DNA of 64,000 nucleotides from NCBI GenBank assembly GCA_038736355.1, contig JAVYML010000002.1, positions 62,001 through 126,000 of the forward strand. The letters are read 5' to 3'. A program made the translations under genes and the position numbers. The notes beneath the pieces were generated by a model, which saw only the letters and a list, made by a program, of their open reading frames with translations, was not told the DNA's origin and made no database searches. Below are positions 3 through 13,844 of the stretch, piece after piece. This DNA comes from Candidatus Hadarchaeales archaeon. Lineage in GTDB: Archaea > Hadarchaeota > Hadarchaeia > Hadarchaeales > WYZ-LMO6. The stretch's first letter is position 1; each line of letters begins with the position of its first letter.

Positions 3-3000
3 CCTTCCATTTCCTCGATGATGTTCAACTCGGCCGGCGCGATCAACGCCAGGTACCTCCTGGACAAGGTCTATCCTCCCGAGGTGAGCGATGCTCACAT
101 CGACGGGGATCTCCATCTCCACGATCTGTATCAGGGAGTGTGCGGGTACTGTTTCTCCGAGGACACGAGGGTGCTGACGAGGGAGGGATTCAAGTACTTC
201 TGGGAGGTCACGCCCGAGGACGAAATAGCGACGCTCAACCTCCGCACCGGCGAGCTGGAGTACCAGAAACCCCTGGCGAAGCAGGAATTCTATTTCGACG
301 GTTACCTCTACCACTGGCAGAACAAAGCCGTGGACCTTCTGGTGACCCCCGAACACAGGATGCTCGTCAGGATGGCGCTCGTCAAGAAACGCGCAAAGCC
401 CGACGGGGAGAGGCTCAGGAAGTACAGGAGGGTTTTCATGCTGAGGGATGGGGGTCTGAGTCTGAGGGGGGTCTCCGGCAGGGTTGGGATTCCGCTCGGA
501 ACCATCCAGGAATGGATCTACCACGGGAGGAAGCCGGTTTACCGGGGGCACAAGCTCAAGGTGGAACCGCAGGTCCTCATCAACGGTTGGAGGATCCTGA
601 CCGCCAAACAGCTCAGCGACCACTACTCCCTGTACGAGTTCAGGAAAGGAGGGGTGAGGTGGAGGGGCAAAGAGAGAGATTCCTTTGACTTTTTGTCGGT
701 AAGGGTCTGGTGCGGGGAATGCGGGAGGAGGGTACCCCCGGATGCCCTGAACTGTCCGAGGTGCGGCTCCTCCTCCTTCACCAGGAAAGAGGAGGTGAAA
801 CGCGTTCCGGCGGAGGTTTTCGTCAGGTTCATGGGGTGGTACCTTGCGGAAGGCAATGTTTGTATATCGAAAAAGGGGTATAGGATAGCCATCTCACAAC
901 TCAACGGGAGGAAGCAGAAGAGGATAGCATCCATAATGCGCGAGATGGGGCTGAACCCATGCATTACCAGGTTCCATGTGTCCTCCCATGCAAGCTGGCT
1001 CTACGAGTACCTGAAGAGGCTGGGCGGGTCAAAGGAGAGGTTCATTCCGCAGGAGATCAAGGAACTTCCCCCGAACCTGCTGAGACTCTTCCTCTCCGAA
1101 CTCTTCGCCGGGGACGGCGTGAAGAGAAAAGGTAAGCTGATACGATATTACACGGCGTCCAAGAAACTGGCGGAGGATGTGGTGGAGTGTCTGATAAAGG
1201 TGGGGAAATGCGGGACGATAAGGGAAGAGAAGGGCCGCTATGAAGTGACGGTGATCCACAGACAACTCACTCCAGAATTTGAAGGCAAGCCCAAGCTGGT
1301 CCGCTACCGGGGGAAGGTCTATGACCTAACCGTTCCCAACGGGACCCTCCTGGTGGAGAGGAAAGGGAAGGTGGTGTGGTCGGGAAACTGCGCGGGCCAT
1401 TCGATGGAGGATATCCTGACGAAGGGGCTGGTGAGCGTGGGGAACAATCCCCATTCCCATCCCCCGAAGCACCTGGACGTGGCCCTGATGCAGGTCGTGA
1501 ACTACATAGGGGTGATGACGCAGGAGTGGGCGGGGGCGCAGGCCTTCTCCTGGATAGACGTTTACCTTGCCCCCTTCATCAGGGAGGATGGTCTGAGCGA
1601 CAGGCAGCTCAAACAGCTCCTCCAGATGTTCGTGTACAACCTGAACGTGACCTCCAGGTGGGGAGGGCAGTGCGTCTCCGAGGACACGGAGGTGTTGACC
1701 GAGGAGGGATGGAAGAGGTACGATGAGCTGAGCATGGAAGACAGAATAGCAACTCTTAATCCGGAAAAAAGAAGGATAGAATTCCTCAAGCTAGAAGGCA
1801 TCCACGTCTACGATTACGAGGGGGAGCTGATCCTCCTCAAAAACAGGGTTACCGAGCAGCTCGTCACACCCAATCACAGAATACTCAGGAAAAAGTTCAA
1901 TTCTGAGACCCTCGAATTCACCGAAGCGGAGAAACTCTTAGCCTTTGATTCTTCCCCCATCCTGCCCATAGCAGGGGAAAATGAGGGAAAGAAAGAGGTG
2001 GACGAAAATCTGCTCAGACTTTGTGCCTGGGTCATTGCGGAGGGGACTTTCTCGGATGATAGGGGGAGGATAGCCATCTATCAGTCAGAGAAACATGTCG
2101 AAAACTGCGAAAGGATAAGGGAGTGTCTTAGAGCCCTGGGGCTCGAGTGGAATGAACAAAAAAGAAAAACCGGATGGTCGAAAGCTCCTTGCATAAGATT
2201 TAGGCTGAAGGACAGGAGCTCTCGGTGGCTCAAACGGTTCCTACCCAGAAAGGAAATTCCTAGATGGATGTTCGACCTCCCGGCAAAGCAGATACGCCTC
2301 TTCCTCGAAGAGTATGCGAGGGCGGACGGTCACGTAGACAAGAACGGCAGGATCAGACTTTATACCAACGACGAAAAGTTGCTTGACGGCTTACAAGCCC
2401 TGGCTGTTCTGGCGGGTTTTGGCTGTACAGCGAAGCGCAACACCGGAGGAACAGCATGGAACGTGAACCTGGTGAGAAATTCCTTCACTCGCATAACCAA
2501 GATAGAGAAGGTGAAGTACAGGGGAAAGGTCTGGTGCCCCACCACGAAGAATGGGACCTTCGTGGCCAGGAGGAACAAAAAGGTGTTCATAACCGGGAAC
2601 AGCCCCTTCAGCAATGTAACGCTGGCCTGCGGGGTTCCCGAGCCCCTGAGGGGAAAGCCGGCAGTGATAGGGGGAAGGCCGCTGGACAAAACCTATGAGG
2701 AGTATGAAGAGGAGATAGAGAGGTTCGATAGGGCCTTCCTGGAAGTCCTCCTGGAAGGGGACGCGATGGGCAAGCCTTTCACCTTCCCCATCCCGACCTT
2801 TGCCATCACAAAGGACTTCCCTTGGGAGGACGGGTTCAGCTCCCTCCTTTTCAAGGTGGCAGCGAAGTACGGCCTCCCCTACTTCCAGAACTTCGTGAGG
2901 AGCGACCTGAGCCCCTGGCAGGTGTACTCGATGTGCTGTCGGCTGAGTCTGGACCTGAGGGAGCTCCAGAGGAACGTCACGGGAGGACTCTTCGGGTCCA

Positions 3001-3872
3001 GTCCGAAGACGGGATCCGTGGGGGTGGTGACCATCAACCTCTCCAGGGCGGGGTACCTGGCGAAGGGGAGCGAGGACGAGCTCTTCAGGAGGCTGAAGTA
3101 CCTGTGCATCCTGGCGGGGAGGGCGCTGGAGCACAAGAGAAAAATCGTGGAGAAGAACATTCAGACCGGTCTCCTCCCCTACACAAAGGAGTACTTCGGG
3201 GATCTGAAGAGGCACTTCTCGACGATAGGGGTAGTGGGGGGGCACGAGATGTGCCTGAACATGGGGATAGAAGGGGGGATCATGAGCGAAGAGGGGAGGG
3301 AGCTGTGCAGGAGGGTGCTGGAGTTCCTGAGGGAGGAGTGCAGGAGGCTCCAGGAGGAGACGGGACACCTCTACAACCTCGAGGCCACGCCGGCGGAGGG
3401 AGTCAGTTACAGGCTGGCGAGGCTGGACAGGAGGAAGTTCGGGAAGGCCATAGCGACCTCGGGGGAGAGGGAGCCCTTCTACACCAACTCCACCCAGCTT
3501 CCCGTGGATGCCGATTTCGACTTGGTGGAGGCACTGGAACACCAGGAACCCCTTCAGACCCTCTACACCGGAGGGACGGTCTTCCACATTTACCTGGGGG
3601 AGAGCTTGGAGGATGGGAGCAGCTCCAAGAACTTAATGAGGAAGATCACCTCCATGACCAGACTCCCCTACTTCACCTTCACCCCCACTTACTCCATCTG
3701 TGGAGACCACGGATACCTGAGGGGAGAACATCCCTCCTGTCCCATCTGCGGAAGGGAGACGGATGTTTATTCAAGGGTGGTGGGGTACTATCGGCCGGTC
3801 AAGAACTGGAACGCTGGAAAGCAGGAGGAATTCAGGCTGAGGAAGAAGTACGACTATGGTCCCCCCCACTGA
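3..3872 (+). CDS. nrdD: Anaerobic (class III) ribonucleoside-triphosphate reductase with two inteins, 5' truncated
   Basis: Glycyl-radical enzyme that reduces ribonucleotides to deoxyribonucleotides without oxygen. The frame is open to the window edge, so the start and any N-terminal ATP-cone lie upstream. Extein signatures seen are the DGDLHLHDL stretch, CCRLSLDL, GLFGSSPKTGSVGVVTINL, GGTVFHIYLGE, a C-terminal four-Cys zinc site (CGDHGY...CPICG) and the glycyl-radical loop RVVGYYRPVKNWN. Two inteins (413 and 310 residues) interrupt it, leaving about 561 extein residues in view. No nrdG activase gene is visible downstream; the next gene is convergent. The identity is secure; splicing is inferred from the intein motifs. 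Confidence 0.95.
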   Translation, partial: PSISSMMFNSAGAINARYLLDKVYPPEVSDAHIDGDLHLHDLYQGVCGYCFSEDTRVLTREGFKYFWEVTPEDEIATLNLRTGELEYQKPLAKQEFYFDGYLYHWQNKAVDLLVTPEHRMLVRMALVKKRAKPDGERLRKYRRVFMLRDGGLSLRGVSGRVGIPLGTIQEWIYHGRKPVYRGHKLKVEPQVLINGWRILTAKQLSDHYSLYEFRKGGVRWRGKERDSFDFLSVRVWCGECGRRVPPDALNCPRCGSSSFTRKEEVKRVPAEVFVRFMGWYLAEGNVCISKKGYRIAISQLNGRKQKRIASIMREMGLNPCITRFHVSSHASWLYEYLKRLGGSKERFIPQEIKELPPNLLRLFLSELFAGDGVKRKGKLIRYYTASKKLAEDVVECLIKVGKCGTIREEKGRYEVTVIHRQLTPEFEGKPKLVRYRGKVYDLTVPNGTLLVERKGKVVWSGNCAGHSMEDILTKGLVSVGNNPHSHPPKHLDVALMQVVNYIGVMTQEWAGAQAFSWIDVYLAPFIREDGLSDRQLKQLLQMFVYNLNVTSRWGGQCVSEDTEVLTEEGWKRYDELSMEDRIATLNPEKRRIEFLKLEGIHVYDYEGELILLKNRVTEQLVTPNHRILRKKFNSETLEFTEAEKLLAFDSSPILPIAGENEGKKEVDENLLRLCAWVIAEGTFSDDRGRIAIYQSEKHVENCERIRECLRALGLEWNEQKRKTGWSKAPCIRFRLKDRSSRWLKRFLPRKEIPRWMFDLPAKQIRLFLEEYARADGHVDKNGRIRLYTNDEKLLDGLQALAVLAGFGCTAKRNTGGTAWNVNLVRNSFTRITKIEKVKYRGKVWCPTTKNGTFVARRNKKVFITGNSPFSNVTLACGVPEPLRGKPAVIGGRPLDKTYEEYEEEIERFDRAFLEVLLEGDAMGKPFTFPIPTFAITKDFPWEDGFSSLLFKVAAKYGLPYFQNFVRSDLSPWQVYSMCCRLSLDLRELQRNVTGGLFGSSPKTGSVGVVTINLSRAGYLAKGSEDELFRRLKYLCILAGRALEHKRKIVEKNIQTGLLPYTKEYFGDLKRHFSTIGVVGGHEMCLNMGIEGGIMSEEGRELCRRVLEFLREECRRLQEETGHLYNLEATPAEGVSYRLARLDRRKFGKAIATSGEREPFYTNSTQLPVDADFDLVEALEHQEPLQTLYTGGTVFHIYLGESLEDGSSSKNLMRKITSMTRLPYFTFTPTYSICGDHGYLRGEHPSCPICGRETDVYSRVVGYYRPVKNWNAGKQEEFRLRKKYDYGPPH
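150..1388 (+). other. Intein 1 in nrdD, LAGLIDADG type with extra HTH and zinc ribbon
   Basis: 413-residue in-frame insertion between ...GVCGY and CAGHS. It starts with Cys (block A, CFSEDTRVLT), has a TPEHR block-B-like stretch, and ends VVWSGN followed by Cys+1. Two dodecapeptide endonuclease motifs are visible (FMGWYLAEGNV near 830; LFLSELFAGDGV near 1090). Between splicing and endonuclease parts lie a helix-turn-helix-like segment (about 434-540) and a four-Cys zinc ribbon (CGEC...CPRC, 711-764), which intein 2 lacks. The residue before the terminal Asn is Gly rather than the usual His. Borders are set by restoring the NrdD extein. Confidence 0.9.
1671..2600 (+). other. Intein 2 in nrdD, LAGLIDADG type
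   Basis: 310-residue in-frame insertion within the extein sequence RWGGQ|SPFSNVTL. It starts with Cys (CVSEDTEVLTEEG), has the block-B-like TPNHR, and ends KVFITGN before Ser+1. Endonuclease motifs are LCAWVIAEGTF (near 2020) and LFLEEYARADGHV (near 2305). Block A and the C-terminal NGT-containing block resemble those of intein 1, suggesting related elements. The penultimate residue is again Gly. Confidence 0.9.
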
Positions 3873-3891: not shown

Positions 3892-3932
3892 CGGGAGTAG
3901 CATCCCCCTGCGAGGGGGTAAGGCTACTCCCG
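3892..3932. terminator. Perfect GC-rich hairpin between convergent nrdD and the cooC-like gene
   Basis: A perfect 10-bp inverted repeat (CGGGAGTAGC at 3892-3901 and its complement at 3923-3932) encloses a second stem (CCCCC 3904-3908 / GGGGG 3913-3917). It sits 20 bp after the nrdD stop and covers the stop codon of the opposing gene. It is not followed by a T tract, so termination is inferred from position; it may instead stabilise mRNA 3' ends on both strands. Confidence 0.5.
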
Positions 3933-4685
3933 ACCTCCCCCTCCAGGGAGGTATCCCATCCTCTTGAGCAACCCCTCCACGCCCAGCAGGGCAGGGCTGT
4001 TCCTCCGCAGGTGAAAGATGGTTAAACCTTTCCTGTCCAGTTCCTCCACCTCCGCATCCTGGGGCACAAGACCCAATACCTCCATTCCCCCGGGAAGCTC
4101 CACCCCTTCTCCCCCCACCACCTTGTTGAGGACCAGACCAGCCCTTTCATATCCCACCGCCCCCCTATCCGCCACTTCCTTGATGATCGAAGCCACCCTC
4201 AGGGACTTGGGGGAGGAATCCGAAACGAGTAGGAGATCGTTGACTTCCCTCATCACCCTCCTGTTGATCTGCTCCACTCCCGCTTCCCCATCTATTACCA
4301 CCACTTCAAAACCCTTGGAAACCGAGGTGAGGACCTCCCTCAGGAATTCGTTTACCTTACAGTAACACCCTTCTTCTTCAGGTCTCCCCATGGCCAGCAG
4401 GGCAAAACCCCTTCCCTCCTCCATGATCTTCATTACCCCGTAGTCGAGGGAAAGGGCCAGCTCCTCCCTGCTCAACCCCCTCCAAGAGGAGAGCCATTCC
4501 TTCCTCAGATCTTCCACCGTTTTCCCAGTCCTCACTCCCAAGGCCTGAGAAAGGCCTGAAGACGGGTCCGCATCCACCGCCAGGATTTTCTTCCATCCCC
4601 CCTCCACCAGCAACCTCACCGAGGCTGAGGCCAAGAAGGTCTTTCCCACTCCTCCCTTTCCGCAAAAGGCCATCACCCTCGTCAT
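3924..4685 (-). CDS. CooC/AcsF-type nickel-insertion ATPase
   Basis: 253-residue P-loop ATPase of the MinD/ParA class. It has the deviant Walker A KGGVGKT at residues 10-16 and the family Cys-x-Cys (C107, C109) in MGRPEEEGCYC, which in CooC proteins holds Ni at the dimer interface. CooC/AcsF proteins mature the nickel clusters of CO dehydrogenase and acetyl-CoA synthase (family knowledge). Its ATG overlaps the TGA of the upstream ACS-like gene (ATGA), so the two are probably coupled. The natural inference is that it loads a metal into a partner encoded in this operon. Family assignment is firm; the client is unknown. Confidence 0.88.
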   Translation of the reverse strand: MTRVMAFCGKGGVGKTFLASASVRLLVEGGWKKILAVDADPSSGLSQALGVRTGKTVEDLRKEWLSSWRGLSREELALSLDYGVMKIMEEGRGFALLAMGRPEEEGCYCKVNEFLREVLTSVSKGFEVVVIDGEAGVEQINRRVMREVNDLLLVSDSSPKSLRVASIIKEVADRGAVGYERAGLVLNKVVGGEGVELPGGMEVLGLVPQDAEVEELDRKGLTIFHLRRNSPALLGVEGLLKRMGYLPGGGGRE

Positions 4686-5386
4686 CCCTTCCCCACCATC
4701 CTTTCCCTTATCGCCCTGAGCTCTTCCACGCTCCCGCAGATTTCCCTGTAGTCACACCTTTCACAGTCCAGGGAAACCTCTTCCACCATTTTGCCTATGG
4801 CCGAGGCAATCTTCCTGGCTTTCTCCCCTATCCCGAGTAGCGAACTCACCCCTTCTTCGGAGGTGGAGAAAACCACCTCCACGGAAGAAACGGGAAGGGA
4901 GCGCAGGGCCCTCCTCAGGGCCTCCCCCACCACGGAGAGGGAGAAGCCCCTCTCCACCACCTGCCTGCTCACCCTGCTCCAGACCCTCATCTGCGAGGGA
5001 AGACCCCTTATCGTGTATCCCTTGAGGACCATCCTGAAGGGCACCAAGTTCAGCTTCCGGTAGTCTTCATCCCTTATCTCCCTGGATTCCACCAAACAAA
5101 GCTGGGCAAAGGGCACTTCTCCCCTCAGCTCCGGAAGATCTTTCCCCCAAAGGCTCACCCTCCCATCCTCCACCAGTCCAGGTGTTTCGGTGAGGAGGAC
5201 GGAAGAAAAGGAGGGAAGCTCGGGAGGACCCAGTTCCACCCAAGTGTCCTCCTTGAGGATCACCTCTGGACCTTCTCCCAGGAACTCCTCCGGAAGGAAA
5301 GGGGAGAGCCTCCTCACCTTTCCTTCCCCCTCAGCTTTTTCCAAGAGGCCGCGCAGGAACTTCAGGTCCTCATCGAAAAGCTTCAT
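4682..5386 (-). CDS. Truncated acetyl-CoA synthase (CdhC/AcsB)-like protein
   Basis: 234 residues, recalling the middle region of the acetyl-CoA synthase beta subunit. Residues 47-100 (DTWVELGPP...VEDGRVSLWGKDL...PFAQLCLVE) match the VELGGPK...VEDGKI...GPDI...YPFGI stretch of CdhC. Residues 133-185 (MRVWSRVSRQVVERGFSL...VEVVFSTSEE) match its VWIRISKDAVEKGF...VQVTLYT. It stops where the A-cluster domain should begin and instead carries C208, C211, C217 (CxxCx5C). The full A-cluster ligand set of genuine ACS is therefore absent. It overlaps the activase gene by 17 nt and the CooC-like gene by 4 nt. It may be a small Fe-S/metal scaffold rather than an acetyl-CoA synthase. The homology is by eye. 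Confidence 0.7.
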   Translation of the reverse strand: MKLFDEDLKFLRGLLEKAEGEGKVRRLSPFLPEEFLGEGPEVILKEDTWVELGPPELPSFSSVLLTETPGLVEDGRVSLWGKDLPELRGEVPFAQLCLVESREIRDEDYRKLNLVPFRMVLKGYTIRGLPSQMRVWSRVSRQVVERGFSLSVVGEALRRALRSLPVSSVEVVFSTSEEGVSSLLGIGEKARKIASAIGKMVEEVSLDCERCDYREICGSVEELRAIRERMVGKG

Positions 5387-6155
5387 CCGCCTTCTCCCGT
5401 GCGAAGAGACAGGCCCCGTAGGCCCCTGCCAGGATGGGATCGAAGGGCAACCTCTTCACCTTCCTCCCCAGCTGTTCCTCTAAGGCCTCCACGAAACTCT
5501 TCAGCCTGCTCACCCCTCCCGCCACCACTATCTCCCCCCTCATCCCCACCCTCCTGACTATGGAGGAAACCCTGCCGGCAATGGCCCTCGTGACCGCAGC
5601 CAGAATGTCCTGAACTTCCTCCCCCTCGTTCAAAAGGGCTATCACCTCGCTCTCCGCAAACACCGTACACTGGGAGGTGATGGAGAGTCTTTTGGTGGAA
5701 CGGGCAACCTCCTCATCCCACCTCTCGAGGCTCACCCCCAGCACCTCCCCGAGCATCTCCAAGAACCTCCCCGCCCCAGCCGCGCACCTGTCGTTCGTCC
5801 CATAATCAACTATCCTACCCCTCTCCATCACCGCCACCCTCGTGGTATTGGCCCCTACCTCCACCAACGTTCCAGTCTCCGGGAGCAAGGGGGCGCAGGC
5901 TTTGGAAAGGCAGAGGAGGATGGGCTTGACTTCCCCCACGAAATCCAAGCCCCTCACCCTCTCTCCAGTCCCCACCCAGCAGGTTACTTCTTCCCTTTTC
6001 CTTCCAGCCCTTTCCAAAACCTCCCTCAGGATCCTTTCAGCCGTTTCCTTGGCCTTTGGACCGGTTTCCAGGACGGCTTGAGCCACCATCGAACCGTTCT
6101 CCATAAGAACTGCCTTCACCCTTCCGCTACCGATATCCAGTCCACCCACCAACAT
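5370..6155 (-). CDS. ASKHA-family reductase activase, divergent second copy (BcrA/BcrD/HgdC-like)
   Basis: 261-residue ATPase related to the activator of 2-hydroxyacyl-CoA dehydratases and the ATPase subunits of benzoyl-CoA reductase. It has an N-terminal phosphate loop (GLDIGSGRVKAVL) and both Cys that hold the dimer-bridging [4Fe-4S] cluster: C124 in NDRCAAGAGRFLE and C163 in SQCTVFAESEV. The usual IDIGGQDxK motif reads VEVGANTTRV, and the usual SEIxxHxxGA motif is degenerate. ATP binding may therefore differ from its partner. The start is the ATG at 6155, overlapping the upstream TGA; the longer open frame upstream is a shadow of the neighbour. Two unequal activases recall BcrA+BcrD. Confidence 0.85.
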   Translation of the reverse strand: MLVGGLDIGSGRVKAVLMENGSMVAQAVLETGPKAKETAERILREVLERAGRKREEVTCWVGTGERVRGLDFVGEVKPILLCLSKACAPLLPETGTLVEVGANTTRVAVMERGRIVDYGTNDRCAAGAGRFLEMLGEVLGVSLERWDEEVARSTKRLSITSQCTVFAESEVIALLNEGEEVQDILAAVTRAIAGRVSSIVRRVGMRGEIVVAGGVSRLKSFVEALEEQLGRKVKRLPFDPILAGAYGACLFAREKADEAFR

Positions 6156-6937
6156 CAGTTTCCCCCCACCCTCTCGCTGGCGAAGAGGGCCGCACCGAGA
6201 GCGCCCACCAGCTGGGGATCGAAATCCAGCTTGATGAGCGGGACTCCAAGCATTTCTTCCAGGTACTTCACCACGCCTATGTTCTTCGCCACGCCTCCCG
6301 AGAGGACCACCTCCCTCTCCACCCCCACCCTGGAAGCCAGTGCCTTCACCCTTGCTGCCATTGACTGGTTCACACCGGCTGCCACATCTTCGGCACTTGC
6401 CCCTTCCGCCAAGTAGGAGAGGACCTCTGACTGCGCGTAAACCGCACAAATGTTGGTGATGGGTATGGGCTCCTTGGAGGAGAGGGAAAGCCTCCCCAGG
6501 TCTTCCACTCCCACTCCGAGTGTCTTGGCCATGAGTTCCAAGAACCTTCCCGTCCCGGCGGCACACTTATCGTTCATGACGAAGTTCACCAGTCTTCCCT
6601 CCCCATCCACCCTTATCACCTTGCAGTCTTGCCCACCGATGTCTATCACCGTCCTCACGGAAGGGAGGAGCCAGTGGGCCCCCTTCCCATGACAGGAGAT
6701 CTCGGAAATGTTCTCGTTGGCGAAGGGAATCCTCACCCTCCCGTAACCCGTCCCCACGCAGTATGCCACCTCCTCCCACCTTCTTCCCGCCTTCCTCAGA
6801 GCCTCTTCCATCACCTCCCTGGCCGAAAGCTCTGGTCTGGGTCTCACCCTTCTCACCTCATGGGAGAGGATGCGCCCGTTCTCCATCAAAAGGGCTTTGG
6901 CAGTAAGGGAACCCACGTCGCAGCCGGCCACCAGCAT
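6155..6937 (-). CDS. ASKHA-family reductase activase, canonical copy (HgdC/BcrD-like)
   Basis: 260-residue ATPase with all family motifs: CDVGSLTAKAL phosphate loop, ISEISCHGKGAH, IDIGGQDCK (98-106), NDKCAAGTGRFLE (C125) and TNICAVYAQSEV (C164), then GGVAKN and a C-terminal GALGAALFA. Such proteins form homo- or heterodimers around one [4Fe-4S] cluster. They use ATP hydrolysis to push an electron at very low potential onto a double-cubane or dehydratase partner (family knowledge). Its start lies 1 nt from the stop of the HgdA/BcrB-like gene, so the operon encodes reductase and activator together. Confidence 0.92.
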   Translation of the reverse strand: MLVAGCDVGSLTAKALLMENGRILSHEVRRVRPRPELSAREVMEEALRKAGRRWEEVAYCVGTGYGRVRIPFANENISEISCHGKGAHWLLPSVRTVIDIGGQDCKVIRVDGEGRLVNFVMNDKCAAGTGRFLELMAKTLGVGVEDLGRLSLSSKEPIPITNICAVYAQSEVLSYLAEGASAEDVAAGVNQSMAARVKALASRVGVEREVVLSGGVAKNIGVVKYLEEMLGVPLIKLDFDPQLVGALGAALFASERVGGN

Positions 6938-6938
6938 G

Positions 6939-8315
6939 CTAACCCAGTCCCATCGTCTCGTTGAACTCTAAAATCCTGCGTTTGATTTCAGAAACCGGAC
7001 TAACCCTGAAGTCCCAGCAATCGGCCTCTATTTTCAGACAGGGAAGACCCGTCTCCTTCTGTAGCGCCCTTATAAAGGCTTGGAAACCCCCCCACACATT
7101 CTTACAGGCTGGATGACCCGCAAAAACAAAACAGTCCCCTCCCCACTGCTCCACGCACCAAAGGTAGTCCTCAAGCCACTGTTCCGGGTAATCCATGGGT
7201 CCTCTCTGTTGCCTGGTCATGGGATAATTCCAGCACCTCTGCGCCAATCCCTCGAGCATGGTATCCAAGGAGGAAGTATCGATGGGTCTCTCAGCGTGGA
7301 AGAGGGTCAGGATATCCACCACGTAGCTCATCCCATTCTCTTCCAGCCAGAACCAAAGATCCATGCTCGGAGAGTAGAAGCCCGTGTACACCCAAATCTG
7401 TCTAATGCGCTCCTCTGGTTTGGCCCCTTCCCTCCTCCTCAGCCTGTCCTTGGAGGCCTCCAACACCGTTTCGAAGAGCTTGGTCCCCTGGGGGGTTCCC
7501 ACCGAGCTGAACTTCACGGCCTGCAAGAAGATGTTGAAACAGGAGTGGACGGGATTGGGGCGGGCCCTCTTCAGATCATTGATCTCCAGATAACACCTCC
7601 TGCACTTCTCGCTTTCCTCTACCACCTCCCTCAACCTCTCCTCCTCCAGCTTCCTTCCCGCGAACTCCTCCAGTTTCCTCACTTGGTGCCTGTACTCCTT
7701 TAGGTAATACCGGAAGGCCCTTTCTCCATGATAGGTAGGGCAGTCTATTCCCAGATAGGGAACACCCAACCTAACAGCCATGTATTCGTAGAGCTTGGAA
7801 TTGGCATCACAGCTTCCCGGGGCAGCGGTGACCACTAGGTCCGGGCGGAGACCGAGGCCCTTCAGGATGGCCCCACAGGCTGCCCTCTGCGAGGTGCACA
7901 TGGTCTCGAGCAATCCCTCCTCCACACTCCAGTCGAAGTACACGTGCGGATCTTCCAAGAAGATGGTGGCAAAGGAGGTGAGCACCTCCGGCACCAGTGG
8001 GACTAGGTCCAGTGCGTATAGAACTTCGGGAGCGGTGTTGAAGCTGGAGAGCACCACCTTCTTCCCCTCCTCCTTCGCTCCCCTCACCATCCCCAAGTAC
8101 CAGCCGGCCCACCTGGATACCTCCATGGCCACCCTCCGGATGGCAGGATCGGAGAGGAAGAGGTGTCTCAGGACCTCGGCCTGGGAGGGAACGGCCGCTA
8201 CCAGGTCTTCCAGCTCCCTCTCCGTCACATCCTCTGGGATGGAGGAAGCTAGGGAAAGAAGGGTAAAGAGTCTCTCCTCGAGCGGCAGCTGCCTAGCCTC
8301 TTCCAACCCTCTCAC
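6939..8315 (-). CDS. 2-hydroxyacyl-CoA dehydratase/benzoyl-CoA reductase family subunit (HgdA/BcrB-like)
   Basis: 458 residues of the HgdB/FldBC/BcrBC superfamily. Family features are the N-terminal APEVLYALDLVPLVPE segment, PGSCDANSKLYEYMA, a GIDCPTYHGE segment, the late GHPACKNVWGG and a C-terminal EADCWDFRVSP...IKRRILEF. Partner subunits of this family bind [4Fe-4S] clusters and reduce or dehydrate CoA esters, or reduce small molecules (double-cubane proteins). The GTG start at 8315 gives a 23-nt overlap with the small upstream gene; a TTG at 8306 is possible. The substrate cannot be read from sequence. Confidence 0.85.
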   Translation of the reverse strand: MRGLEEARQLPLEERLFTLLSLASSIPEDVTERELEDLVAAVPSQAEVLRHLFLSDPAIRRVAMEVSRWAGWYLGMVRGAKEEGKKVVLSSFNTAPEVLYALDLVPLVPEVLTSFATIFLEDPHVYFDWSVEEGLLETMCTSQRAACGAILKGLGLRPDLVVTAAPGSCDANSKLYEYMAVRLGVPYLGIDCPTYHGERAFRYYLKEYRHQVRKLEEFAGRKLEEERLREVVEESEKCRRCYLEINDLKRARPNPVHSCFNIFLQAVKFSSVGTPQGTKLFETVLEASKDRLRRREGAKPEERIRQIWVYTGFYSPSMDLWFWLEENGMSYVVDILTLFHAERPIDTSSLDTMLEGLAQRCWNYPMTRQQRGPMDYPEQWLEDYLWCVEQWGGDCFVFAGHPACKNVWGGFQAFIRALQKETGLPCLKIEADCWDFRVSPVSEIKRRILEFNETMGLG

Positions 8316-8628
8316 CCTTCTCGGCGAGCTTCCTTATTTCCCTCTCCTCCAGCCTTGGGCGGAGGTAGACCGCATATCCCCCCTGGGTCCTCTCCACCAT
8401 CACCTTCCACCCTCCCCTCTCCCCCTCCTCCCTCTCCGACTGGCCCTTCACCACCCGATGCAGCATCTCCTCCATCCCCTCCAAGAGTTCCTTGGGAAGC
8501 CTGGGCCTGAAATCGGGACAGAGTCTCAGGCTGGCGGGGTTCTCCTCGGCCCCCTTCAGCTGGCAACTTATCCTCTCCCACCCTTCCCATCTCGCCCAGA
8601 AACAGTCCTCGCATCTCACGGGACTCAT
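8293..8628 (-). CDS. Small Cys-containing protein of the reductase operon, unknown function
   Basis: 111 residues; I do not recognise the family. The N-terminal third has four Cys (CEDC, ISC, RLCPDF; residues 6, 9, 22 and 37), suitable for a zinc or Fe-S site. The rest is charged, with an RGGWKVMVERTQGGYAVYL beta-like stretch. Its ATG overlaps the TGA of the HgdB-like gene (ATGA) and its end overlaps the HgdA-like gene by 23 nt. It is therefore almost certainly translated with both reductase subunits and may be an accessory subunit or electron-transfer adaptor (inference). Confidence 0.75.
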   Translation of the reverse strand: MSPVRCEDCFWARWEGWERISCQLKGAEENPASLRLCPDFRPRLPKELLEGMEEMLHRVVKGQSEREEGERGGWKVMVERTQGGYAVYLRPRLEEREIRKLAEKGERVGRG

Positions 8629-9767
8629 TTTCCCAGCCTCTCCAAGAAGGCCTGGACCCTAGTCCTGATCCTTCCCACCTCCGCCAGCGGGCCGTACTGC
8701 CTCTCCAAGAGCAGGGTGGGCACTCCCTCTTCCTCCAGCCTCCTGGCGAAGAGGGTGTTGTCCCCTCCGTGCGTGTCGCAGAACTTCATGTGTTCCAGGA
8801 TCACCCCTTCCACTCTCCATTCCTTGATCAACCTCCTCAAAAAGCTGAGCTTCCTTTCGAATTCCCCGTAGGTCCTGGCACAGGGCATGTGATAGTAGTA
8901 CCTCCTGACCAAAGCCTCGAAGGGATCACCCCTTTCCTCCACCAGATCCACGATGGACCTCATGCCAAAGCAGAGGGAGTCCGTGACCACCAGACCTCCC
9001 TGCCCCTCTATCACCCTCACCAGCTCCGGATCATCGTTCACACTCCCCACGAGCATAAGTCTGGCTCCCGAATGCTCCTTTCCCCTTTCCTCTATTTCTT
9101 CAAGGGCTTCCTCCAGCAGACGGTTGTAAACCTCCCTCCTCATAGCCGTGCTCGCCACATGAATGGCTAAGGCCTCCTGCCCGGAAATGAGGGGCTTCTC
9201 CTTCTTTCTCTTCTCGTTCAGCTCCAGCAAGAGCCTCCTCCCCCTGTTGTACTCCCTTACGGCCTCCTCCAGCCTCTCCCCCTCGAGCTTCGTCCCGAAG
9301 TGTCTCTCCATGGCACCCAAAAGGGAGGAGATCTCCTCCCGGTAGAACTCCAGCCCATGCTCCGTGAGGGTGTGGGGAATCCCGAAGTAGTAGAAGAAGG
9401 GAGGGAGATTCCCTGCGGCCTTCCAGCAGTCGTACATCCTCCTCATGTGGTCACAGGTGCGGGAAATCACGGCCCCGTCCAGAAAGCCGTACCTCCCCTC
9501 CAGCACCAGCTGCAGGCAGCAACGTGTGTAGCTACAGTTGACGGGACCGTACCAGGCATCAGCCAGGTGGGTCCCGGAGCATCCCGTCCCCCTTATCCTG
9601 AAGGGAAGCATGCCCAGAGCATGGACTAGTTCCTCCGGGAAGTAGCTGCAGGTATAGCCTATGACCCTTCCTCCCTCCCTTTTCCACCCCTCCACATGGG
9701 GATTGGAAATTCCAGAAGAGACCTGCACCAGAGTTTCGAAACTCCTCACTGAAAAAGGTTGGGCCAC
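8625..9767 (-). CDS. 2-hydroxyacyl-CoA dehydratase/BcrC/double-cubane-like subunit, operon leader
   Basis: 380 residues with the family pattern YTCSYFPEELVHALGMLPFRI (C40), a Cys-rich middle (C63, C78, C83, C84), SRTCDHMRRMYDCW (C105, C114), the late KFCDTHGGDN and a C-terminal IRTRVQAFLERL. This is the subunit type that holds the reducing Fe-S cluster in BcrC, FldC and double-cubane proteins. The number of Cys exceeds the three ligands of a plain dehydratase, so a double cubane is possible. The start shown is GTG 9767. GTG 9749 sits about 24 nt from the TATA-like palindrome centre and would give a leaderless mRNA, so it is the likelier true start. Confidence 0.87.
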   Translation of the reverse strand: MAQPFSVRSFETLVQVSSGISNPHVEGWKREGGRVIGYTCSYFPEELVHALGMLPFRIRGTGCSGTHLADAWYGPVNCSYTRCCLQLVLEGRYGFLDGAVISRTCDHMRRMYDCWKAAGNLPPFFYYFGIPHTLTEHGLEFYREEISSLLGAMERHFGTKLEGERLEEAVREYNRGRRLLLELNEKRKKEKPLISGQEALAIHVASTAMRREVYNRLLEEALEEIEERGKEHSGARLMLVGSVNDDPELVRVIEGQGGLVVTDSLCFGMRSIVDLVEERGDPFEALVRRYYYHMPCARTYGEFERKLSFLRRLIKEWRVEGVILEHMKFCDTHGGDNTLFARRLEEEGVPTLLLERQYGPLAEVGRIRTRVQAFLERLGK

Positions 9768-9779: not shown

Positions 9780-9805
9780 TTTTGGTGAGGGGGAAAAGAA
9801 GAAAG

Positions 9806-11002
9806 ATGGGGGACAAAAAAGTGGTGGTCCTGGGCGGCGGTGGGGTGGTAGGGAGAACCGCCGTGAAGGACCTGGCCAAGAGCGGGACCTTCTCCGAGGT
9901 GGTGGTGGCCGACAAGGAGGTGGAAAAGGCCAGAAGATACCTGGAGGGAATCCCGCACCTCTCCTTCGTGAAAACGGACATCACGGAGCTTGCCACCCTC
10001 CGGGAGGTGATAAAGGAAGCGGATGTGGTGCTCAACACCGTGGGACCCTTCTACAAGTTCGGCCCCCTCCTCACCAGGGAAGCCATCCGAGCGGGGGTGA
10101 ACTACGTGGATATCTGTGACGACTACGAAGCCACACTGGAGCAGCTGGAGATGGACGAAGAAGCCAGGAAGAAAGGGGTGACCGTCCTCACGGGGATGGG
10201 TTCTTCGCCCGGCGTGTCCAACGTGGTGGCCAAGTTCTGCTGCCAGCTCTTGGACCAGCCGGAGGAGATCCACATCTACCACATCCACGGGGGGGAGCCC
10301 GATGAAGGTCCCGCGGTGATCTACCACCGCATCCACTACATGGTGGGAAAGATTCCCATGCTCAGGGAAGGAAAAATGGTGTATTTCGGGTTCTTCAGCG
10401 AAGAAGGGGAGAAGGAAATAGAGGAAGTGGACTTTTACGATCCCATCGGGGTGGTGAAGGTTTATCCCTATCCCCATCCAGAAACCATCACCCTTCCCCG
10501 CCATATCCCAGGCCTAAAAAAGGTGACCAACAAGGGAGCCGTCCTCCCCCTGGAATATTACGAGCTGCTACGAAACGCCGTGAGGATGGGATTGGCCGAG
10601 GAAAAACCGTTGAAGGTGGGGGAAGCTTTGGTGGCCCCCATCGATTTCCTAGTTTCCTTCATCCTCTCCAAGAGGAAGGAATATGCAAGCAGGCTGCCCG
10701 AACCCGTGGGCTGTCTGAAGATAGTGGTGAGGGGGAAGAAGGAGGGGAAGAGGATGGAGTATAGGTTCGCCACGCCTTCGAGGGGGGCAGGGATGGGGGA
10801 AGGAACGGCCATCCCCGCCTCGGTGGGCACGCAGATGGTGGCCAGGGGAGAGATCGAGGAAAAGGGAGTTCTTCCCCCGGAGGCCTGCGTGGATCCCATG
10901 AGATTCTTCGAGGCGGTGAGGAGCAGGGAGGGAATGGGAGGGGTAAGGATCATCTTCGAGGGCGTTGACGAGGAAGGAAGAGTGACCAGCATACCCCTCT
11001 AA
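9806..11002 (+). CDS. Saccharopine dehydrogenase-family oxidoreductase
   Basis: About 398 residues with an N-terminal Rossmann dinucleotide-binding fold (VVVLGGGGVVGRTAVKDLAKSG), then DVVLNTVGPFYKFG, NYVDICDDYE and GMGSSPGVSNVVAKF, all typical of the saccharopine dehydrogenase/lysine-6-dehydrogenase superfamily. The substrate is not identifiable. ATG 9806 was chosen over TTG 9782 because of its distance to the upstream TATA-like palindrome. It is the first gene of a plus-strand set with a RuBisCO-like protein (35 nt downstream) and a sugar kinase, so it may oxidise an intermediate of a sugar or sugar-acid pathway rather than lysine (inference). Confidence 0.8.
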   Translation: MGDKKVVVLGGGGVVGRTAVKDLAKSGTFSEVVVADKEVEKARRYLEGIPHLSFVKTDITELATLREVIKEADVVLNTVGPFYKFGPLLTREAIRAGVNYVDICDDYEATLEQLEMDEEARKKGVTVLTGMGSSPGVSNVVAKFCCQLLDQPEEIHIYHIHGGEPDEGPAVIYHRIHYMVGKIPMLREGKMVYFGFFSEEGEKEIEEVDFYDPIGVVKVYPYPHPETITLPRHIPGLKKVTNKGAVLPLEYYELLRNAVRMGLAEEKPLKVGEALVAPIDFLVSFILSKRKEYASRLPEPVGCLKIVVRGKKEGKRMEYRFATPSRGAGMGEGTAIPASVGTQMVARGEIEEKGVLPPEACVDPMRFFEAVRSREGMGGVRIIFEGVDEEGRVTSIPL

Positions 11003-11037
11003 CAAGCCTTTTTTCCCCCAAAGAGCACCTCTTTTGA

Positions 11038-12336
11038 ATGTTCAAATGGAGGGAAAGGGAATACGAGGAACTGGAGGCCCAGCCCGAAGCCCTCCCTGAA
11101 GGGGTAGACCCGGAAGAATATGTCATTGCCACCTACTTCCTCTCCCTACCCTCTGCCCTGGATCCCTGGGAAGTGGCCAGGGCCCTAGCCATAGAACAGA
11201 GCACCGGCACCTGGGTACCCGTTCCCGGGGAAACCCCGGAGGTGAGGAAGAAGCATGTGGCGAAGGTAGTCGGAGTATACGAAACTCCCTTCCCGGAAGT
11301 GCTGGCCCCCACAGAGACCAAAGAAAGGAATTACATCGTGCAAATCGCCTTTCCACAGGTAAATTTTGGAAAGCAGATCCCCATGCTCCTTTCAACCGTG
11401 GCTGGAAACCTCATGTGCTGGGAGAAGATCAAGCTCCTCGACCTCCGTTTTCCCAAGAGCTTCGTGGAGGGTTTCAAGGGGCCCAAGTTCGGGATAGAGG
11501 GAATAAGGAAGCTTCTGGGGGTAAAGGAGAGGCCCCTGATCAACAACATGATCAAACCCTGCACGGGCTTCACCCCTGAGGTGGGCGCCAGGCTGGCCTA
11601 CGAGGCCGCGGTGGGAGGGGTGGACATGATCAAGGATGATGAACTGCTGGGCAATCCCTCCTTCAACCCCATCGAAGAAAGGGTCCCGAAGTACATGGAG
11701 GCCCTGGAAAGGGCCGACAGGGAGAAGGGGGAGAAGACCCTCTATACCGTCAACATCACGGATGAAGCCTCCAAGGTGCTGGAGAACGCCGACAGGGCCC
11801 TGGAGCTCGGAGCCAACGCCCTTATGATCAATTACCTCACCGCCGGAATCTCCCTCCTCAGGGAGCTGGCCGAAGATCCCAGCATCAACGTCCCCATCCT
11901 GGCCCACATGGACTTTTCTGGTACCATGTACGTCTCCCCCTACTCGGGTCTCTCCTCCTCCCTCCTGCTCGGGAAACTCCCCAGGCTGGCGGGAGCCGAC
12001 ATAGTGGTCTATCCCGCCCCCTACGGGAAGGCCCCCTTCATGAAGGAGAGATACGTGAGGGTGGCCCATCACCTGACCTTCCCCTTCTACCACCTCCGTC
12101 CCACCTTTCCCATGCCGAGCGGTGGGATCACCCCCTCCATGGTTCCCGAAGTGGTGAGTGACCTGGGAAGGGATGTGGTGATAGGAACGGGGGGTGGGAT
12201 CCACGCCCATCCGATGGGACCCAGGGCGGGAGCTAGGGCCTTCAGACTCGCGGTGGAAGCGGTGATGAAGGGGATAAGCCTGCAGGAGATGGCCAAAGAA
12301 CATGAGGAACTCAGGATAGCCCTCCAGATGGGTTAG
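11038..12336 (+). CDS. RuBisCO-like protein (form IV type)
   Basis: 432 residues of the RuBisCO large-subunit fold. The metal-binding triad is intact (K199, D201, E202 in VDMIKDDE, equal to spinach K201/D203/E204). Also kept are K173 (K175), H290 (H294), loop-6 K331 (K334), S361 (S379) and the GGG phosphate loop near 385. Carboxylase residues are replaced: K177 is C175, R295 is M291, H298 is S294 and H327 is Y325. It should therefore enolise a phosphorylated substrate but not fix CO2 on RuBP. Known relatives act in methionine salvage and in apiose/isoapionate catabolism. The adjacent sugar kinase favours a phosphorylated sugar or sugar-acid substrate (inference). Confidence 0.85.
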   Translation: MFKWREREYEELEAQPEALPEGVDPEEYVIATYFLSLPSALDPWEVARALAIEQSTGTWVPVPGETPEVRKKHVAKVVGVYETPFPEVLAPTETKERNYIVQIAFPQVNFGKQIPMLLSTVAGNLMCWEKIKLLDLRFPKSFVEGFKGPKFGIEGIRKLLGVKERPLINNMIKPCTGFTPEVGARLAYEAAVGGVDMIKDDELLGNPSFNPIEERVPKYMEALERADREKGEKTLYTVNITDEASKVLENADRALELGANALMINYLTAGISLLRELAEDPSINVPILAHMDFSGTMYVSPYSGLSSSLLLGKLPRLAGADIVVYPAPYGKAPFMKERYVRVAHHLTFPFYHLRPTFPMPSGGITPSMVPEVVSDLGRDVVIGTGGGIHAHPMGPRAGARAFRLAVEAVMKGISLQEMAKEHEELRIALQMG

Positions 12337-12344
12337 GGGATTCT

Positions 12345-13844
12345 TTGGGATACATCCTAGCACACGATCTCGGGACGGAACTGAACAAGGCCGCCTTGGT
12401 GGATGAGGAGGGGAGGATAACGGTCTACTGTACCCAAGAATACTCCGTTTCCTACCCCAGACCCGGATGGGCGGAGCAGGATCCGGAAGTCTGGTGGAAG
12501 GCCGTCAGGGAAACCACGAGGAGGGTTCTGGAGCTCGCCGGAATAAAACCTGAAGAAGTGGAGGCCCTGGTCTTCGACAGCATGATGTACACGCTGGTGG
12601 CGGTGGATGAGGAGGGCAGACCCCTAAGACCCGCCATCCTCTGGATGGACACTAGGGCCAAGGCCCAGGCCGAGGAGCTGATGGGAAGATTGGATCTGCT
12701 CGGCATGCTGGAGAGGGGTGTGATCCCCCCCACTTCCGCCAAAGACATCACACCTAAGATTCTTTGGATAAAGCAGGAGGAACCCGAGATCTTCGAAAGG
12801 GCCCGTTTCATAGACAGCAAGGACTACCTGGTACACAAGTGCGTGGGTGAGTTCTACACCGACTGGAGCTGTGCCAGCCTCTTCTGCCTTTTCAACTTCA
12901 GGGAGAAGGAATGGGAAAAGGAGCTGGTGGAGGAAATGGGCCTCTCGGTGGAGAGGCTCTCCAAACCGGTGAGGAGCACGGAGGTGGTGGGGAACCTCAC
13001 GGAGAGGGCCTCCAGGGAGTTGGGATTGCCGAGGAAGGTGGAGGTGGTGTGCGGATCCGGGGATGCCACCGCCGTGGCGGTGGGGGCGGGAGGTCCCCAT
13101 CTCTACATCGGCACCTCCGCCTGGATAGGGGCCCACGTGGAGGAGCCCCTCTTCGACCTCACGGGAGTGGGAAGCATCTGCTCCGCAGATCCCTCAAAGT
13201 TTTTCCTCATAGGGGAAATGGAGAATGCCGGGGCCTGTCTCAAGTGGTTCAGGGAAAACCTAGCCAAGGAGGAAAGGGAAAGGGCGGAAAGGGAGGGAAA
13301 GGGTCCCTACCAGCTCTTGGATGAGCTCGCAGCAAGGGTGGAGGCGGGATCCGAGAAGCTCCTCTTCCTTCCTTGGATGATGGGGGAGAGATGTCCCTTC
13401 ACGCAATCCACCGCAAGGGGGGCCTTCCTCAACCTCACCTTCGGGCATACCAAAGGGCACCTGATAAGGGCGATCATGGAAGGAGTGGCCTACCACATGA
13501 GGTGGATCCTGGAGGTGGTGGAGGGGATGGGTCTCTCCCTTCCCTCCCTCAGGGCCTGCGGCGGGGGGGCCAAGAGTGAGGTCTGGCTCCAGATCTTCGC
13601 CGATGTGATGGGAAAGAGGGTGGAAAGGATTTCCTTCCCCCACCACGTGGGCTCCGTAGGGGCTGCCACGATAGCCAGGGTAGGACTGGGGAAGACGGAT
13701 TTCCCCTCCGCCGAAAAATCCGTGAAGGTGGAAAGGGAGTTCCTCCCCTCCGAAGAAAAAAGGGAAATCTACGACAGGATGTACGAGGAGTTCAAAGGGA
13801 TGCAGGGAAGACTCTCGGAAGTCTTCGAACGTCTCAACACCTAG
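12345..13844 (+). CDS. FGGY-family carbohydrate kinase (xylulokinase-like)
   Basis: 499 residues. The N-terminal ASKHA phosphate loop reads AHDLGTELNKAALVDEEG, followed by GWAEQDPEVWW, the ILWMDTRA segment, GSGDATAVAVGAG and RACGGGAKSEVWLQI, the standard order for FGGY kinases of 480-520 residues. It phosphorylates a sugar or polyol with ATP. The start is TTG 12345, supported by an AGGGGA ribosome-binding site at 12335-12340 that overlaps the stop of the RuBisCO-like gene. Its product is plausibly the substrate or precursor used by that neighbour. The stop overlaps the archease stop in CTAG. Confidence 0.87.
   Translation: MGYILAHDLGTELNKAALVDEEGRITVYCTQEYSVSYPRPGWAEQDPEVWWKAVRETTRRVLELAGIKPEEVEALVFDSMMYTLVAVDEEGRPLRPAILWMDTRAKAQAEELMGRLDLLGMLERGVIPPTSAKDITPKILWIKQEEPEIFERARFIDSKDYLVHKCVGEFYTDWSCASLFCLFNFREKEWEKELVEEMGLSVERLSKPVRSTEVVGNLTERASRELGLPRKVEVVCGSGDATAVAVGAGGPHLYIGTSAWIGAHVEEPLFDLTGVGSICSADPSKFFLIGEMENAGACLKWFRENLAKEERERAEREGKGPYQLLDELAARVEAGSEKLLFLPWMMGERCPFTQSTARGAFLNLTFGHTKGHLIRAIMEGVAYHMRWILEVVEGMGLSLPSLRACGGGAKSEVWLQIFADVMGKRVERISFPHHVGSVGAATIARVGLGKTDFPSAEKSVKVEREFLPSEEKREIYDRMYEEFKGMQGRLSEVFERLNT

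Follow-up and report, generated by a model that had tools for sequence, protein, structure and literature searches.

In a 64,000-nucleotide stretch of the genome of a Candidatus Hadarchaeales archaeon (contig JAVYML010000002.1, positions 62,001 to 126,000; hereafter the window), seven minus-strand open reading frames (ORFs) at 3924-9767 encode what appears to be an ATP-driven reductase resembling class I benzoyl-CoA reductase (BCR), together with AcsL, a short relative of acetyl-CoA synthase (ACS), and an ATPase similar to CooC. Outside its own phylum, the set is also found in Desulfobacterota, Chloroflexi, Ignavibacteriae, Bacillota and Asgard archaea, with synteny and co-occurrence far above background. 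The explanation that we tentatively favor, from the gene set, folds, ligand conservation, synteny and co-occurrence observed here, is a class-I-BCR-like reductase with a dedicated AcsL-CooC module, in which AcsL and CooC would serve as a metal-handling assembly pair. A preliminary description of this DNA had proposed one system joining a reductase of the BCR or 2-hydroxyacyl-CoA dehydratase (HAD) type, an ACS-like protein and a CooC-like ATPase, a view borne out by the cross-phylum synteny. It knew of no enzyme combining these parts, and we likewise found no description of the gene set in the literature searched, an absence that is weak given that only the openly licensed portion, and for most queries only the first papers listed, was covered.

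All seven genes of that description, with their overlaps or 1-nt spacing, are present, and every neighboring pair overlaps or abuts. In transcriptional order they encode the reductase subunit BcrC, a small cysteine-rich protein, the second subunit BcrB, two activases (ActA and ActB), AcsL and CooC. Four nucleotides are common to bcrC and the small-protein gene (8625-8628), which in turn overlaps bcrB by 23 nt (8293-8315); bcrB and actA are separated by a single nucleotide (6938), actA and actB have 1 nt in common (6155), actB and acsL overlap by 17 nt (5370-5386), and acsL and cooC again share 4 nt (4682-4685). The assigned actB start at 6155 sits within a longer open frame beginning at 6566.

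Judged from the proteins' sequences, the reductase is built like a class I BCR of the BZD type. Both subunits score far over the Pfam HGD-D cut-off of 28.4 bits: BcrC, of the BzdN/double-cubane type (8625-9767, minus strand; 380 residues, GTG start), at 308 bits, and BcrB, BzdO/HadB-like (6939-8315, minus strand; 458 residues, GTG start), at 182 bits. The best PDB match of BcrC is BzdN (8s02_B, E 2e-51), followed by 3o3m_B and MbdN and then by 7yyl and 6eno (6eno_A, E 3e-31), both of which we take to be the double-cubane cluster protein (DCCP). Six cysteines of BcrC (Cys40, 78, 105, 266, 296 and 330) are unchanged in all 65 BcrC proteins encoded at acsL loci and stand in register with those of BzdN. 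BcrC thus has the double-cubane ligand set of the BZD-type class I BCRs and is predicted to hold the cluster, which agrees with the double-cubane guess of the preliminary description. The part of the BzdNOPQ study drawn on here (PMC11971306) describes an [8Fe-9S] double cubane held by six cysteines in BzdN and, in BzdO, an aqua-[4Fe-4S] cluster on Cys95, Cys128 and Cys380; Glu65 and His131 are neighbors of this cluster, and BzdO also binds the CoA ester. The corresponding positions in BcrB are Cys140 and Cys169, found in 83 of 83 sequences, and Cys404, found in 68 of 83; the third cysteine is replaced by histidine in the two Chloroflexi rows inspected. A profile of the BcrB family (A6) matches 3o3m_A (E 2e-35), in an alignment that spans most of the length of BcrB, and BzdO (8s02_A) at an E-value of about 1e-35. 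The BadFG/HgdC-type ATP-dependent activase ActA (6155-6937, minus strand; 260 residues) and the second activase ActB (5370-6155, minus strand; 261 residues) reach 214 and 145 bits against BcrAD_BadFG and 267 and 186 bits, over cut-off, against CoA_E_activ. Two activase cysteines (Cys125 and Cys164 of ActA) occur in 87 of 87 rows, and both window activases keep them.

Among known systems, BzdNOPQ (class I BCR, BZD type; 8s02) has the same two HGD-D subunits and two BadFG activases, and BzdNO has the same six-cysteine double-cubane set (N-like) and three-cysteine [4Fe-4S] set (O-like). The window system differs in adding AcsL and CooC, and its BcrB belongs to a distant subfamily lacking His131 of BzdO; scores of the window proteins against the bzd/bcr NCBIfam models are below the cut-offs. 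BcrC has a six-cysteine set like that of DCCP but scores only 176.5 bits against the DCCP equivalog model NF040772, whose curated cut-off is 350, and the window system has in addition a three-cysteine partner and the AcsL-CooC module. The same extra module separates it from HadBC with HadI (3o3m), whose 3o3m_A resembles BcrB; the HadC-type partner of the 2-hydroxyacyl-CoA dehydratases is not known to have a double cubane. Nickel chaperones are encoded next to a reductase in one earlier case, the Acetobacterium isoprene reductase operon (IsrA with HypA/HypB), whose chaperones are proposed to serve the reductase in the part of the report consulted (PMC10134865); the protein families are unrelated and nickel is only proposed there.

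AcsL (4682-5386, minus strand; 234 residues) consists of an ACS-type A2 domain and a C-x2-C-x5-C tail. It matches Pfam CdhC at 33 bits (cut-off 24; E 6.5e-8), and phmmer aligns it to ACS residues of about 329-483. An AlphaFold2 model built from a 23-sequence alignment has a mean predicted local distance difference test (pLDDT) score of 89.8, with lower values (53-73 by ten-residue blocks) in the C-terminal cysteine tail. The top 23 Foldseek matches of this model are ACS chains, every one, and VIA-align superimposes it on residues 318-496 of 1mjg with Z 20.6 and a root-mean-square deviation of 1.9 over 170 residues, whereas all rows from rank 19 onward have Z of at most 3.2. Comparison of 88 AcsL sequences with full ACS by HHalign gave a probability of 99.85% over the A2 domain, and Trp136 and Arg138 of AcsL are also found in ACS. 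There is no A1 domain and most of A3 is missing. The C-x2-C-x5-C motif is present in 88 of 88 AcsL sequences and the ACS-type CxxC-x8-C in none of them; the nickel-binding CGC is likewise found in 0 of 88, tails to the stop codon included. In full-length ACS of 10 of 10 loci inspected, both CGC and the pattern CxxC-x8-C-x9-C, which we take to be the iron-sulfur ligands of the A-cluster, are present; these ten references were kept for having the iron-sulfur pattern, one such ORF per locus and always with CGC, and the other long ORFs at the same loci have neither. In full ACS, about 20 residues separate the aligned end from the A-cluster CxxC, and the CxxC-x5-C of AcsL follows at much the same distance (17 residues in the window), so that the three-cysteine motif stands about where the A-cluster ligands begin, with the nickel site missing. 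Because most of A3 and, in all 88 sequences, the CGC motif are missing, AcsL is by sequence a relative of ACS with an A2 fold, and not an ACS. The ACS-like identity given in the preliminary description stands through the A2 fold, and its suggestion of an ACS-like metallo-subunit is weakened in the literal sense by the missing CGC. No credible fusion of acsL with a partner gene was seen; the extended open frames at issue appeared to reflect read-through of GC-rich sequence.

The last gene of the operon, cooC (3924-4685, minus strand; 253 residues; CbiA 46.5 bits), encodes a P-loop ATPase whose best PDB match is CooC 3kje (E 6.7e-16). The CxC metal motif (Cys107/Cys109) is conserved in 76 of 76 sequences and the GKGGxGK P-loop in 74 of 76, and the window protein has both. 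CooC proteins are a maturase family of carbon monoxide dehydrogenase (CODH)/ACS and act as metal-loading ATPases.

To follow the gene set across genomes, acsL was searched for on its own and partner genes were then counted around each match. In the profile searches of Asgard archaea, the Desulfobacterota phylum and the phylum of genome G624, short acsL scored at least 134 bits and full-length ACS at most 101; the match lists for Asgard archaea and the Desulfobacterota phylum reach down past the lowest short acsL. Short acsL was found in 61 of 227 Asgard genomes, 25 of 297 genomes of the Desulfobacterota phylum and 2 of 398 in the phylum of G624; among the 28 Hadarchaeota genomes compared, it was found only in the source genome (G000) and G027. 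Named records with acsL come from Chloroflexi/Dehalococcoidia, Ignavibacteriae, Helarchaeota, Jordarchaeia/Freyarchaeota, Abyssobacteria, Desulfobacteraceae, Desulfosudis and metagenome-assembled genomes of Microthrixaceae and Lachnoclostridium. The bcrB type is present in 58 of the 61 Asgard genomes with acsL (the three exceptions being 58-71% complete), in 24 of 25 from the Desulfobacterota phylum and in 2 of 2 Hadarchaeota; no HGD-D proteins were detected in the other 26 Hadarchaeota genomes. Fisher tests of this co-occurrence do not take phylogeny into account.

Synteny was counted over 104 loci, some from one genome or from near relatives; L112, L120, L123 and L127-L130 were left out as lying on contigs already included, and locus L126 is frame-broken. 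Within 8 kb of bacterial acsL, bcrC was found at 49 of 60 loci, bcrB at 53, an activase at 47 and cooC at 42; where at least 5 kb was available on each side, the counts were 34, 34, 29 and 28 of 36, respectively. The Asgard loci have a different arrangement: cooC lies within 8 kb of acsL in 37 of 42, and the two are adjacent in 35 of 42, bcrB is that near in only 13 of 42, and neither bcrC nor bcrB is within 8 kb in 29 of 42. Here acsL and cooC are mostly apart from the bcr genes, yet nearly all of the genomes with acsL contain the bcrB type, which fits a pair acting in trans. In one Jordarchaeia locus (L092), bcrC, two bcrB, two activase genes and acsL stand in series. The preliminary description had called for a co-occurrence search and named a lack of conserved synteny in related archaea as telling against its proposal; what we find is a gene set that recurs, and synteny that is conserved, across phyla.

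The operon behaves as one unit containing two tighter modules, acsL-cooC and bcrC-bcrB, since tree-distance correlations within these pairs exceed those between them. For the 18 loci with a single copy of each gene, the correlations are 0.83 for acsL-cooC, 0.91 for bcrC-bcrB and 0.63-0.74 for cross pairs; for all loci, with arbitrary choice among copies, they are 0.88 (67 loci), 0.75 and 0.37-0.48. Hadarchaeal bcrC clusters with Desulfobacterota (support 0.995), as for the most part does acsL (0.945), which suggests gene transfer between domains; the corresponding groupings are weakly supported for bcrB (0.44) and cooC (0.28).

The system is also separable from CODH/ACS. When 35 genomes with acsL were scanned with CdhC, a full-length ACS failed to appear in 17, including G517 (100% complete) and G507 (a single contig, 90%), and 18 had a full, divergent or fragmentary ACS. 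The scan covered 12 Asgard genomes, chosen mostly for a single match, and 23 reached through their loci, with completeness given for the Asgard genomes only, so that the value of 17 in 35 should not be taken as an unbiased proportion. No acsL was seen in the ACS-bearing relatives G011, G025 and G026, and no bcr or activase match was found at any of six full-length-ACS loci (L141-L143 and L145-L147; two canonical, four divergent), which are 10.6-20.6 kb long, some with little sequence on one side. The preliminary description had held that the proposal would fall if the ACS-like and CooC-like genes consistently accompanied a separate CODH/ACS operon instead of the reductase genes; the genomes without a detected full-length ACS and the ACS loci without bcr matches speak otherwise. 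The four divergent loci, all from Chloroflexi (L143, L145, L146 and L147), encode ACS paralogs of 455-491 residues with the full A-cluster pattern and CGC, which score about 60-70 bits against CdhC versus at least 200 for canonical ACS; ORFs of 829-850 residues adjoin them in 3 of the 4.

The genes around acsL in other genomes bear on the substrate. Neighbor families were defined as single-linkage clusters within 9 kb of acsL and named by a Pfam scan of one representative. Among them, an acyl-CoA dehydrogenase occurs at 18 loci, an AMP-forming acyl-CoA ligase at 8 and an enoyl-CoA hydratase at 7. SCP2-like lipid carriers are encoded at 20 Asgard loci, and 6 bacterial loci have a protein resembling them. 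A FAD oxidase/CCG Fe-S pair of GlcD and GlcF type is present at 27 Asgard loci and 1 other, TetR at 9 loci, GMC oxidoreductase at 8 and a helical protein at 19. The recurrent families are clade-specific, and none is in the window's own operon. The acyl-CoA enzymes and SCP2-like carriers are only suggestive of CoA esters of hydrophobic acids as the substrate class.

On the reading that we favor, the two activases would hydrolyze ATP and drive low-potential electrons via a bridging [4Fe-4S] cluster into BcrC, whose [8Fe-9S] double cubane would relay them to the open-site [4Fe-4S] cluster of BcrB; there a CoA-bound, probably hydrophobic acyl substrate would be reduced. This electron path is modeled on BzdNO. 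We infer the metal and maturation role of the other two proteins: CooC, using ATP and its CxC motif, would load a metal, possibly nickel, on AcsL, which would hand it to a reductase cluster or complete that cluster. Such an enzyme matters because of the chemistry within reach: ATP-driven double-cubane reductases attain potentials outside the usual biological window, benzoyl-CoA reduction lying at -622 mV according to the part of the cited study drawn on (PMC11971306). If the reading is true, anaerobic carbon cycling would include an enzyme system not described so far, a widespread reductase branch accompanied in nearly every case by a dedicated ACS piece and usually by an adjoining CooC-type ATPase. 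It would concern Asgard archaea, probable alkane-oxidizing Hadarchaeota, Dehalococcoidia and Desulfobacterota, and the middle domain of ACS would have been reused outside the Wood-Ljungdahl pathway.

Several observations weigh against this reading. We know of no need for an AcsL/CooC-like module in BCR, HAD or DCCP enzymes, and the nickel-binding motif of ACS is missing from AcsL. In bacteria, cooC lies no more than 1.5 kb from acsL at 41 of 60 loci and the rest are without a nearby cooC, which would be unexpected of a strict pair; a trans-acting CooC is possible at these. The bcrB type occurs without detected acsL in 8 of 32 genomes of the Desulfobacterota phylum and 11 of 69 Asgard genomes, a converse test that is weaker since profile A6 was derived from bcrB genes that neighbor acsL. 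In one of these genomes, G1251, the matches begin 1.6 kb from the contig start, so acsL would lie beyond the contig edge, provided that the gene order were as in L137. The position of BzdO His131 is taken by Asn172 in the window BcrB (a one-residue gap in the alignment was removed by hand); therefore aromatic-ring reduction is not implied and the substrate need not be aromatic. Finally, at many bacterial loci acsL stands between activase and cooC genes, as would suit a stoichiometric subunit.

This last arrangement leads to the main rival, which we consider somewhat unlikely: AcsL could belong to the reductase as a third, stoichiometric subunit. The A2 domain of AcsL would then bind the CoA thioester, its three-cysteine site would hold a [4Fe-4S] cluster that accepts electrons from BcrCB, or supplies them, at the substrate, and CooC would mature AcsL. 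The A2 domain of ACS takes part in CoA binding, and the A2 fold with Trp136 and Arg138 in common with ACS, the acyl-CoA enzyme neighbors and the placement of acsL next to activases in many bacterial operons would all agree with such a subunit. It is harder to reconcile with the Asgard loci, at 29 of 42 of which acsL-cooC lies away from bcrCB, with co-evolution of acsL that is looser with bcrCB than with cooC, and with a CoA ester that is already bound by BzdO, as stated in the part of the report drawn on (PMC11971306). A more specific proposal, that the enzyme is a heterometal (Ni-Fe-S) member of the BCR/HAD superfamily in which AcsL passes CooC-loaded nickel into either the open cubane in BcrB or the double cubane in BcrC, we regard as doubtful; it would imply an ATP-driven reductase for unactivated hydrophobic acyl-CoA and a new enzyme class common to bacteria and archaea.

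It is improbable that AcsL and CooC mainly serve adjoining FAD/FeS redox proteins (GlcD/GlcF in Asgard archaea, GMC oxidoreductase in Desulfobacterota) as an electron-input or substrate-oxidizing arm of the same pathway: the GlcD and GlcF types are each near acsL in 27 Asgard loci and SCP2-like proteins in 20, but the partners change from one clade to another and do not occur in the window's operon, while the link with bcr holds across clades. A role for AcsL as a sensor of acyl-CoA or redox state for the operon, with no catalysis left from its ACS ancestry, would fit the missing nickel motif and is quite improbable, as three cysteines invariant in 88 of 88 sequences and co-inheritance with an ATPase better fit a working metal site. 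Least credible of all is an aid to CODH/ACS, in which the activases and the double-cubane protein would reductively activate ACS while AcsL scaffolds A-cluster assembly; for all the kinship of AcsL with ACS, the CooC maturase family, the full CdhC of the host and the 18 acsL genomes with some form of ACS, we rejected an accessory role in CODH/ACS as the main explanation on the 17 genomes, from a set partly chosen for this, without a detected full-length ACS, the ACS-bearing relatives without acsL and the six ACS loci without bcr or activase genes.

Several further observations concern neighbors of acsL in other genomes. In Asgard loci such as L037, L072, L085 and L107, a GlcD/GlcF-like FAD/CCG pair adjoins acsL-cooC, and several of these loci also encode an SCP2-like protein. 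The conserved helical protein, encoded upstream of bcrC in Desulfobacterota and Bacillota (L133, L135-L140, L212-L216, L218, L219, L221, L227, L236, L237 and L244), has no Pfam family over cut-off, and shorter related ORFs stand in tandem with it at several loci. URO-D/MtaA-like genes lie near the cluster in some Asgard loci (L127, on the same contig as L092 and examined with Pfam; L038; L041). A link to the mlp methyltransferase clusters was rejected since the gene set differs from that in the part of the report consulted (PMC10418091).

The source genome is 1.27 Mb long and 95.8% complete. It has two MCR_alpha matches (G000:C1:55388-55762 and G000:C4:188-568) and encodes a full CdhC; with these it fits the alkane-oxidizing Hadarchaeota, and the host is probably such an archaeon, bearing Mcr or an alkyl-coenzyme M reductase. 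The same pattern of MCR and CdhC is described for Ca. Cerberiarchaeaceae in the part of the report consulted (PMC10811742).

The small cysteine-rich protein of the operon (8293-8628, minus strand; 111 residues) has no Pfam family over cut-off. Its counterpart in G027 occupies the same gap with 82% identity over 88 residues, and no significant homologs were found beyond G000 and G027 in the 244 loci compared; it looks real but lineage-specific. The operon is flanked on one side by a divergent saccharopine-dehydrogenase-like gene, the first of three consecutive plus-strand genes (9782-13844) of which the others are RuBisCO-like and FGGY kinase genes; the best model for the RuBisCO-like protein is 2,3-diketo-5-methylthiopentyl-1-phosphate enolase, at 381.8 bits versus a cut-off of 409. 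On the other side lies a convergent ribonucleotide-reductase-like ORF of 1284 residues (18-3872, plus strand), presumably of the anaerobic class, in which two intein-like insertions can be read from the sequence.

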